37,975 nucleotides of DNA, from NCBI RefSeq assembly GCF_003034965.1, contig NZ_PZKE01000021.1:1-37975 (forward strand). The letters are read 5' to 3'. Position 1 is the stretch's first letter. The number at the start of each line of letters is the position of its first letter. Positions 12,532 to 25,608 of the stretch are shown piece by piece. The notes below the pieces were generated by a model. It worked only from the letters and a program-made list of their open reading frames with translations, did no database searches and was not told where the DNA came from. A program made the translations under genes and the position numbers. This stretch comes from Fuscovulum blasticum DSM 2131 (GTDB lineage Bacteria; Pseudomonadota; Alphaproteobacteria; Rhodobacterales; Rhodobacteraceae).

Positions 12532-12676
12532 CGCTTGGGCTCCGTCTGCGGCACGGGCGTCCTTTGGCACGGGGCGGCGGCGATGGGAAGGGGGCGGTCG
12601 CGACCCCACGTCATGCTTGATCGAAGACGGGTGTGGCCGCAAGGATTTGCCCATGGTTCAGGGAGGAGGAACCCCT

Positions 12677-13066
12677 ATGAAAAAGTGGATGCTTGCGGCG
12701 GCTCTGGCAGTGCTGGGCACGGCGGCTGCGGCCGATCCGGTGGAAGGCACCTGGAAGACCAAGGTCGATGACAACGGCAACTACGGTCATGTGAAGATCG
12801 TGCCTTGCGGCCAGGCCTTCTGTGGCACGCTGGTCAAGGCGTTTGACGGCACGGGCAAGCAGATCGAAAGCCCGAACGTCGGCCGCAAGATCGTCTGGGA
12901 CATGGTGCCCTATGGCGACGGCCGCTATGACGACGGCAAGATCTATTCCCCCGACCGCGACAAGACCTACAACTCCGAGATGGAACTCTCGGGCAACAGC
13001 CTGAAGGTCTATGGCTGCGTGCTGGGCATCTGCCGCGATGGCGGCACCTGGCAGCGGGTGAAGTGA
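12677..13066 (+). CDS. DUF2147 family exported protein
   Basis: Encodes 129 residues: a Sec signal peptide (MKKWMLAAALAVLGTAAAA, cleavage near residue 20) and a small beta-rich domain DPVEGTWKTKVDDNGNYGHV ending in YGCVLGICRDGGTWQRV, which is the DUF2147 pattern. Four cysteines are spaced for two disulfides. The function of the family is unknown; the product should be periplasmic. AGGAGGA precedes the start. It is divergent from hisA and heads a plus-strand run with an exporter, an Ada-domain protein and a VOC protein. Confidence 0.85.
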   Translation: MKKWMLAAALAVLGTAAAADPVEGTWKTKVDDNGNYGHVKIVPCGQAFCGTLVKAFDGTGKQIESPNVGRKIVWDMVPYGDGRYDDGKIYSPDRDKTYNSEMELSGNSLKVYGCVLGICRDGGTWQRVK

Positions 13067-24795: not shown

Positions 24796-24859
24796 GTCAC
24801 CCACCTTTTCGGGCGGCGACTATCTGCGGGCGGGCTTTGAAGGGCAAGGGGAGAGGAAA

Positions 24860-24933
24860 GATGCGGCGGTGCCGAGGGAGGAGGAGTAGGCACCGCCGCT
24901 GGTTCCGGGGCCCGAGGGAGGAGGAGAGGGCCG
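24860..24933 (-). ncRNA. CcsR-type sRNA, unit 4 (two CCTCCTCCC-loop hairpins)
   Basis: Read on the minus strand the first hairpin (24909-24932) has a 5-base stem and the second (24863-24899) a perfect 11-base stem ending in GCGGCGG pairing. Both loops show CCTCCTCCC (24916-24924 and 24876-24884). A T-rich CATCTTTCC follows the second stem. The unit is preceded by a small CGGGC/GCCCG spacer hairpin. Ends are inferred from the structures only. Confidence 0.82.
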
Positions 24934-24968
24934 CCGAAGACTGTCGGGCACAAGGGCCCGGAAGGAAG

Positions 24969-25049
24969 GGGCGCGGCGGCATCCGAGGGAGGAGGAGAGG
25001 ATGCCGCCGCTTGCTCCGGCGGTTCCCGAGGGAGGAGGAAGGGAACCGT
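24969..25049 (-). ncRNA. CcsR-type sRNA, unit 3
   Basis: Hairpin one (25020-25048) pairs CGGTTCCC with GGGAACCG; hairpin two (24973-25010) has a perfect 12-base stem. Loops carry CCTCCTCCC at 25030-25038 and 24987-24995. The stems differ from those of the other units but remain fully paired. A GGCCC-ATC-GGGCC spacer hairpin lies upstream. Exact ends are not determined. Confidence 0.82.
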
Positions 25050-25078
25050 CGAATCTGCTGGCCCGATGGGCCGAAAGG

Positions 25079-25150
25079 GGTGCGGCGACGCCAGGGAGGA
25101 GGAGAGGCGTCGCCGCTGGTTCCGGGGCCCGAGGGAGGAGGAGAGGGCCA
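25079..25150 (-). ncRNA. CcsR-type sRNA, unit 2
   Basis: Hairpin one (25126-25149) has a GGCCC/GGGCC stem and hairpin two (25082-25116) a perfect 11-base stem. Loops carry CCTCCTCCC at 25133-25141 and 25094-25102. A CGGGTC-ATCT-GGCCCG spacer hairpin precedes it. Hairpin one and its flank are nearly identical to those of unit 4, suggesting a relatively recent duplication. Confidence 0.82.
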
Positions 25151-25182
25151 CCGAACTGTTTCGGGCCAGATGACCCGGAAGA

Positions 25183-25262
25183 AAGTGCGGCGTCGTCAGG
25201 GAGGAGGAGAGACGACGCCGCGTTTGCCATGGACCCCGAGGGAGGAGGAGAGGGGTCCGAGC
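25183..25262 (-). ncRNA. CcsR-type sRNA, unit 1
   Basis: This unit directly follows the DUF1127 gene, whose stop codon lies ten bases before the first stem. Hairpin one (25231-25258) pairs GGACCCC with GGGGTCC; hairpin two (25187-25221) has a perfect 11-base stem followed by ACTTTCTT. Loops carry CCTCCTCCC at 25240-25248 and 25199-25207. It lacks the upstream spacer hairpin of units 2-4. In R. sphaeroides the four CcsR sRNAs sit at the same place behind a DUF1127 gene. Confidence 0.85.
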
Positions 25263-25268
25263 AAGAAA

Positions 25269-25484
25269 TTATCTGCCGTAGGCGGCCTCACGGGCCACAT
25301 CGGCAATGGAAAGGCGCGAGATGCCCAGATCGGCAAGTTCGCGGTCGGTCAGTTCGCGCAGTTCGGCCAGCGTGCGGGTATAGACACGACGGCGGGCCAG
25401 GGCGGCGCCCAGAACCGAGAACAGGCCACCGCCGCGCTGCGCCGGATGCGCGGCTGCCGATCGGGTTTGCATGACATAGGCCAT
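25269..25484 (-). CDS. DUF1127 small RNA-binding-type protein (CcaF1-like)
   Basis: Encodes 71 residues. The C-terminal part TRTLAELRELTDRELADLGISRLSIADVAREAAYG is a textbook DUF1127 domain, a short arginine-rich helical pair. In Rhodobacter sphaeroides the equivalent small protein (CcaF1) binds RNA and influences maturation of the CcsR sRNAs and RNA turnover. Here too, four CcsR-type units follow immediately, so a joint transcript with sRNAs processed from its 3' part is expected. The start at 25484 gives the compact family size; the frame is open up to 25592 but the extra residues overlap the candidate promoter and do not look like the family. MQTRSAAA at 25472 is an alternative start. Confidence 0.88.
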   Translation of the reverse strand: MAYVMQTRSAAAHPAQRGGGLFSVLGAALARRRVYTRTLAELRELTDRELADLGISRLSIADVAREAAYGR

Positions 25485-25538
25485 AGGACTGCTTGCCTCT
25501 AGAAACGGGGGCACAACTTCTGTTGCGCTGTTGCCGTT

Positions 25539-25567
25539 AACATGGGCCGGTTTCTGCACCTGCACAA
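25539..25567 (-). promoter_or_regulatory. Candidate promoter of the DUF1127-CcsR transcript
   Basis: On the minus strand TTGTGC (25567-25562) and CATGTT (25544-25539) are separated by 17 bases, predicting a start about 50 bases before the DUF1127 gene. In R. sphaeroides this operon is driven by the stress sigma factors RpoHI/RpoHII; the CATGTT element is compatible with that class, but the assignment is weak. Confidence 0.3.
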
Positions 25568-25587: not shown

Positions 25588-25608
25588 GCCATGCGGCAAC
25601 CGCATGGC
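25588..25608. promoter_or_regulatory. Perfect dyad GCCATGCGG-CAA-CCGCATGGC
   Basis: Nine-base inverted arms around CAA lie between the divergent DUF1127 and apbC genes, upstream of both likely promoters. It has no T-run, so an operator is more likely than a terminator. The binding protein is unknown. Confidence 0.4.

Follow-up and report, generated by a model that had tools for sequence, protein, structure and literature searches.

We analysed a window of 37,975 nucleotides from Fuscovulum blasticum DSM 2131. Its minus strand carries a short gene coding for a DUF1127 protein of 71 amino acids and, directly downstream on the same strand, an array of RNA hairpins whose loops contain the motif CCTCCTCCC. 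The stop codon of the gene occupies 25269-25271 and the first stem of the array starts at 25264, 4 nt further on, in agreement with the first-pass annotation, which had placed the array within ten bases of a 71-codon DUF1127 gene. A short DUF1127 gene (PF06568) in this position is one of the features that define CcsR operons. The motif occurs nine times in the window, eight of them on the minus strand within 24876-25248, compared to 0.74 expected and a maximum of 3 in 100 shuffles; the whole 3.59-Mb genome contains 23 copies, including the eight in the array. The first motifs of successive units are 107, 103, and 114 nt apart, which bears out the four units of about 103 to 114 bases originally described. 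The features of the locus are listed in Table 1.

Table 1. Positions in the window of the ccaF1-like gene, its putative promoter, the hairpins of the array and the candidate target
Feature	Position	Strand	Evidence
Putative -35 element of RpoH-like promoter, TTGTGCA	25561..25567	-	ATTGTGC kept in 9 of 10 aligned upstream stretches
Putative -10 element, CCCATGTTA, 14 nt after the -35 element	25538..25546	-	CCATGTT kept in the same 9 stretches
ccaF1-like gene, 71 aa, DUF1127	25269..25484 (stop included)	-	PF06568, 42.5 bits (cut-off 23.3)
Unit 1, first hairpin, CCTCCTCCC loop at 25240-25248	25224..25264	-	Folds; CcsR1 model match over 25182-25269
Unit 1, second hairpin (11 bp), loop motif at 25199-25207	25187..25221	-	Folds; CcsR1 match
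Spacer hairpin 1, without motif	25162..25177	-	Spacer folded alone; pairs with spacer 2 in whole-region fold
Unit 2, first hairpin, loop motif at 25133-25141	25121..25155	-	Folds; CcsR1 56.1 bits over 25081-25156
Unit 2, second hairpin, loop motif at 25094-25102	25082..25116	-	Folds; CcsR1 match
Spacer hairpin 2, without motif	25060..25072	-	Spacer folded alone; pairs with spacer 1 in whole-region fold
Unit 3, first hairpin, loop motif at 25030-25038	25020..25048	-	Folds; CcsR1 38.1 bits over 24968-25055
Unit 3, second hairpin (12 bp), loop motif at 24987-24995	24973..25010	-	Folds; CcsR1 match
Spacer hairpin 3, without motif	24945..24960	-	Forms alone and in whole-region fold
Unit 4, first hairpin, loop motif at 24916-24924	24904..24938	-	Folds; CcsR1 51.6 bits over 24858-24942
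Unit 4, second hairpin, loop motif at 24876-24884, last of the array	24863..24899	-	Folds
Candidate target site GGGAGGAGG, DUF2147 ribosome site, perfect loop complement	12661..12669	+	Kept in relatives
DUF2147 gene, candidate target	12677..13066	+	PF09917, 71.2 bits; target status inferred

The 436-nt array region folded at -207.8 kcal/mol (z = -12.5), and none of 100 shuffled sequences was as stable. When the transcript was taken to start at position 25530, all eight motifs were predicted to lie unpaired in stem-closed loops, each with a mean unpaired probability of at least 0.997. CcsR RNAs have two hairpins in each unit, with CCUCCUCCC loops that stay unpaired, and this held for eight of eight motifs. 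The claim of two hairpins per unit with exact motif loops therefore stands as far as these loops are concerned but leaves out a third, motif-free hairpin that is possible in the spacers. Similarly, the eight stems had been described as different in sequence yet complementary. Pairing in the stems is supported by covariation across the aligned matches described below; however, units 2 and 4 begin with hairpins of nearly the same sequence, and the long stems have a common GCGGCG-type base, so that not all eight stems differ. The last hairpin of the array is possibly a terminator, with a pyrimidine-rich stretch after it. A terminator scan detected none on the strand of the array and a single one on the plus strand, at 25588-25608.

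Since a hairpin without the motif can form in each of the three spacers, the number of hairpins per repeat is three instead of two. Only that of spacer 3 was present when the whole region was folded at minimum energy, where spacers 1 and 2 made a long-range helix of 6 + 9 bp around unit 2. Among 104 unaligned spacers folded alone, which are non-independent where they come from one array or from related genomes, 100 formed a simple hairpin of at least 4 bp, compared to 51% of shuffles, and 77 formed one of at least 5 bp, compared to 28%; the mean z was -1.34, and 68 of the 104 were below -1. In the alignment of model matches described below (A2, 150 matches), 74.4% of cells were paired in the corresponding third helix, and each of its five pairs had changed on both sides. 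RNAalifold did not recover the spacer hairpin from a MAFFT alignment (A1), owing to a wrong register of A1 at the spacer and in some first loops. A literature search, with primary papers outside its reach, returned nothing new on such a hairpin in Rhodobacter sphaeroides. We infer that the spacer hairpin may guide cutting or guard a 3′ end.

The covariance-model search proposed in the first-pass annotation assigned unit 1 to the CcsR family: RF02791 (CcsR1) matched it at 72.3 bits, over the gathering cut-off of 65.3. Units 2, 4, and 3 matched the same model at 56.1, 51.6, and 38.1 bits (E values of 6.9e-13, 1.5e-11, and 1.4e-7), all under the cut-off. The ar14/NfeR1 model (RF02344) scored the four units at 39.3 to 49.7 bits, below its cut-off of 58.8, and thus does not claim them as members. 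RF02791 has 83 positions and stops before the spacer hairpin. A model of our own (R1) spans unit and spacer (109 positions) and was built from 48 aligned units of 62 non-redundant ones, with its structure written by hand. R1 recovered all four units in the F. blasticum genome, at 89.3, 85.6, 62.2, and 61.9 bits. Across 82 sources it gave 187 matches, a list that holds two of the four units of the window because neighboring matches overlap by a few bases. Alignment A2 consists of the best 150 of these 187 matches, 147 of them distinct. All 17 pairs changed on both sides, and covariation was 0.483, compared to 0.189 for shuffled alignments and at most 0.130 with slid partners, although these counts lean towards the hand-written structure. 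Open reading frames of 123 to 274 codons run across the array on both strands, as would be seen if the array were protein-coding and its repeats low-complexity reading frames; this reading was rejected on the grounds of the covariation, the Rfam match, and unit spacings that are not all multiples of three, and we regard its probability as negligible.

A fifth, weak RF02791 match in the genome (26.9 bits; E = 0.07 with R1) was the only one outside the array. It corresponds to a single 11-bp hairpin with a CCTCCTCCC loop (L005:1500-1555; G000:C9:64486-64540, minus strand), located on the sense strand between genes that we named by eye as an ABC-transporter-like substrate-binding protein and an ATPase.

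We then surveyed other genomes with RF02791 at an E value of 0.001, using stricter filters that lose weak matches in both surveys. Matches were present in 29 of 60 genomes (own genome included), among them 11 of 12 congeners, with 2 of the 60 over the cut-off. In the family as a whole, sampled as one genome per genus and again with the own genome included, 205 of 248 genomes matched and 11 exceeded the cut-off, which indicates that homologues often fall short of it. Of the 14 control genomes, Thermus composti alone gave a match, below the cut-off. A search of plasmids returned three records, matched by the Mrp gene only. One locus (L035), from a record titled Exiguobacterium, matches the alphaproteobacterial family throughout and probably derives from a mislabelled assembly.

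The surroundings of the array are largely kept. Among the 54 loci brought in by RF02791 (L006-L033 and L061-L086), most of which reach only 1.5 kb to each side, an Mrp/ApbC homologue was close to the array in 48, a CcaF1 homologue in 44, and a BenE or UvrD homologue in 30. Tabrizicola, Gemmobacter, and Rhodobacter ruber each have a DUF1127 relative together with an array. The number of motifs ranged from 2 to 14 across 35 arrays for which a pattern located a DUF1127 gene, the window included. Neighboring units are near identical in two arrays (L049:5165-5717 and L010:1508-2224), which suggests recent tandem growth. Two genomes (G262 and G130) have CcsR-type matches on several contigs or far apart, unlike the single array described here. 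A mobile or selfish hairpin repeat that lacks a regulatory function and came to lie behind a DUF1127 gene by chance might be expected to vary in unit number, to include near-identical units, and to scatter, as in G262 and G130 and as with the single hairpin elsewhere in the F. blasticum genome. Such a repeat would not be expected to keep the same position next to Mrp, as in 48 of 54 loci, or to change its stems with compensation around a constant loop, and the only match outside the array in the own genome is weak. We consider this origin very improbable.

Upstream of the ccaF1-like gene, two blocks, ATTGTGC and CCATGTT, are shared by nine of ten aligned stretches, the window among the nine; the tenth (L010) is cut inside the gene. 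The corresponding elements of the window, TTGTGCA and CCCATGTTA, resemble what we take to be the RpoH consensus, and we regard them as a conserved, RpoH-like, putative promoter. A sigma-70 promoter scan found none. Farther upstream, the plus-strand inverted repeat picked out by the terminator scan (25588-25608) overlaps a block, CATGGCAGCATTG, that is partly kept in relatives.

The closest known counterpart of this locus is ccaF1 (RSP_6037) with CcsR1-4 of R. sphaeroides (Rfam RF02791), in which a DUF1127 gene for a protein of 71 amino acids likewise precedes four sRNAs with CCUCCUCCC loops (PMC10253847, PMC8625941). The promoter there is of the RpoH type (PMC10253847, PMC8625941), stated as RpoHI/RpoHII for ccaF1 (PMC10253847), and the kept blocks of the window agree with it. 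The gene order, the 71-aa protein (the length given for CcaF1 in PMC10253847), the putative RpoH-like promoter, and the kept neighbors all fit the R. sphaeroides operon. Together with the RF02791 match they uphold the identification of a ccaF1-CcsR locus made in the first-pass annotation, and the family-wide pattern points to orthology with the R. sphaeroides genes. The two differ in that the present array comes from another species and has three of its four units below the Rfam cut-off. CcsR-like sRNAs beside short DUF1127 genes are described as frequent in alphaproteobacteria under the name CIN1 (PMC10253847), and the Cuckoo RNA family/CIN1 (Reinkensmeier and Giegerich 2015) has the same adjacent hairpins, CCUCCUCCC loops, and variable stems. 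The NfeR1/ar14 sRNAs of rhizobia (RF02344) carry an identical loop motif and act by pairing with ribosome sites; they differ in having three hairpins within one sRNA, a sigma-70 promoter of their own, and independence from Hfq (PMC10746234). SmelA075 and SmelA099 of Sinorhizobium meliloti have three and four hairpins with similar CCUCCUCCC loops, and the passage describing them names no DUF1127 neighbor (PMC3927594).

For R. sphaeroides, co-transcription, RNase E processing, and stress induction of ccaF1-CcsR have been shown (PMC10253847, PMC8625941, PMC8307010, PMC7866481). The transcript is cut by RNase E (PMC10253847, PMC8307010, PMC7866481, PMC7074977), and CcsR1-4 are processed by RNase E and PNPase (PMC7866481). 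One target of the CcsRs is flhR, and they also have effects on glutathione and pyruvate dehydrogenase (PMC10253847, PMC8307010, PMC7866481, PMC7074977). By analogy, a single transcript from a stress promoter of the RpoHI/RpoHII type would comprise the mRNA for the DUF1127 RNA-binding protein and, as its 3′ UTR, the four sRNA units. RNase E would separate the units, its probable cutting sites being the unpaired, pyrimidine-rich segments next to the spacer hairpins. The two unpaired CCUCCUCCC loops of each sRNA would then pair with particular mRNAs at ribosome binding sites of the GGAGGAGG type, and this pairing would block translation or speed up decay. Co-transcription, cutting by RNase E, the role of CcaF1, stress control, and repression through the loops are carried over in this scheme from the R. 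sphaeroides and S. meliloti papers. What we observed directly is the family match, the structure and its covariation, the kept gene order and putative promoter, and the kept loop matches at the two candidate targets considered below. On this basis we hold with considerable confidence that the locus is a ccaF1-CcsR operon, transcribed as one unit from a stress promoter, with four sRNA units as its 3′ UTR and loops that pair with ribosome sites.

We looked for candidate targets of the loops in the F. blasticum genome. GGGAGGAGG occurs 3 to 10 nt before an ATG eight times, once inside the array and seven times outside it, and the reversed pattern does not occur; the 8-mer GGAGGAGG precedes an ATG 14 times, compared to once for its reverse. 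Two of the seven outside sites head no ORF of 30 codons, and behind three others lie genes that match Pfam families, namely DUF2147, a phage-type tail completion protein, and an acetyl/propionyl-CoA-synthetase-like (prpE-like) gene. The last of these is called prpE-like after its best NCBIfam scores, which were obtained over a 400-residue part and fall below the full-length cut-offs. Loop-matching sites also make candidates of a 76-aa protein and a DctP-like gene. At another position (L182; G000:C6:129788), a 45-aa cysteine-rich ORF with no Pfam family lies downstream of a GGAGGAGG ribosome site.

The conservation of such sites was examined in relatives for prpE, DUF2147, phaB, and mnhE, with the own genome counted in each total. 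A loop match of at least 8 nt was kept at DUF2147 in 10 of 16 relatives (7 of 9 within the genus) and at the prpE-like gene in 10 of 21 (9 of 13 within the genus), counts that overstate independence because some congeners are close (L130-L132 have nearly one leader). Distant or partial matches (L144-L152 and L169-L177) were left out of the counts; among L144-L152 and L169-L175, an 8-nt match is present in L146, and no start was obtained for three. As a baseline, none of 134 long ORFs, taken as those of at least 200 codons with mechanical starts and so longer than DUF2147 (129 codons), had a loop match of at least 8 nt. The flanks of the target loci, with a match in 7 of 52, were excluded from this baseline since that set includes the target genes themselves. 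Two further candidates were rejected as kept targets: mnhE retained a match of at least 8 nt in 1 of 15 only, and phaB in 2 of 12, with 7 nt in nine more. Their failure indicates that a loop match seen in a single genome says little about target status. The proposal that the anti-Shine-Dalgarno loops could have many mRNA targets is thus only partly borne out, given that outside the array a perfect 9-nt site precedes an ATG just seven times and that mnhE and phaB failed.

The kept matches at DUF2147 and prpE are 8 to 9 nt long within the genus, and the longest match of these sites to what we take to be the 16S tail is 5 to 6 nt. With this assumed tail sequence, predicted duplex energies for the own-genome leaders were -23.2 kcal/mol for the loop versus -16.5 kcal/mol for the tail at DUF2147, and -19.8 versus -16.3 kcal/mol at prpE. 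In ccaF1 itself, by comparison, the match between ribosome site and loop never exceeds 5 nt (35 of 35 arrays), which is what an operon that escapes repression by its own sRNAs should show. Selection for translation could by itself preserve a strong ribosome site, and weak ccaF1 sites may have reasons other than such escape. The matches suggest that DUF2147 and prpE are repressed in the organism by the sRNAs of the array; they are candidates from the present work, whereas R. sphaeroides CcsR has flhR as its published target. The literature search, with primary papers outside its reach, returned no link between DUF2147 and a small RNA, between CcsR and an anti-Shine-Dalgarno role, or between CcsR and propionyl-CoA, which we do not take as absence from print.

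The array could instead serve mainly as a 3′ UTR stabilizer or as a protein decoy, its loops binding CcaF1, Hfq, or another protein, with sRNA-mRNA pairing being secondary. CcaF1 of R. sphaeroides binds RNA and affects the levels of CcsR and many other RNAs (PMC10253847), the CcsRs interact with Hfq (PMC8307010), and a motif number of 2 to 14 in 35 arrays is what a dosage device might show. However, the loop is an exact anti-Shine-Dalgarno sequence, the ribosome sites of two genes keep the match to it while that of ccaF1 stays at 5 nt or less throughout, and the same loops act by pairing in NfeR1, which represses ntrB at the ntrB ribosome site (PMC10746234). A decoy or stabilizer as the main function therefore appears unlikely, and we retain repression by loop pairing as the preferred reading. 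In its most specific form, which we put forward tentatively and consider somewhat less probable than its negation, a three-hairpin repeat, in which two anti-Shine-Dalgarno loops are joined by a conserved hairpin in the spacer that directs cutting or protects a 3′ end, would repress a small kept set of mRNAs (DUF2147 and prpE in the genus) whose sites match the loop better than the 16S tail, while the ccaF1 site would escape.

The operon family has already been described; our additions are the spacer hairpin, the two candidate targets, and the extent of under-annotation. The surveys indicate that this bacterial family regularly carries ccaF1-CcsR-like arrays, and as the Rfam cut-off reports so few of them, most would go unannotated. 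With the longer model R1, the spacer hairpin, and two loop-matching sites that have been kept, the general idea of anti-Shine-Dalgarno loops gives way to named, testable targets.
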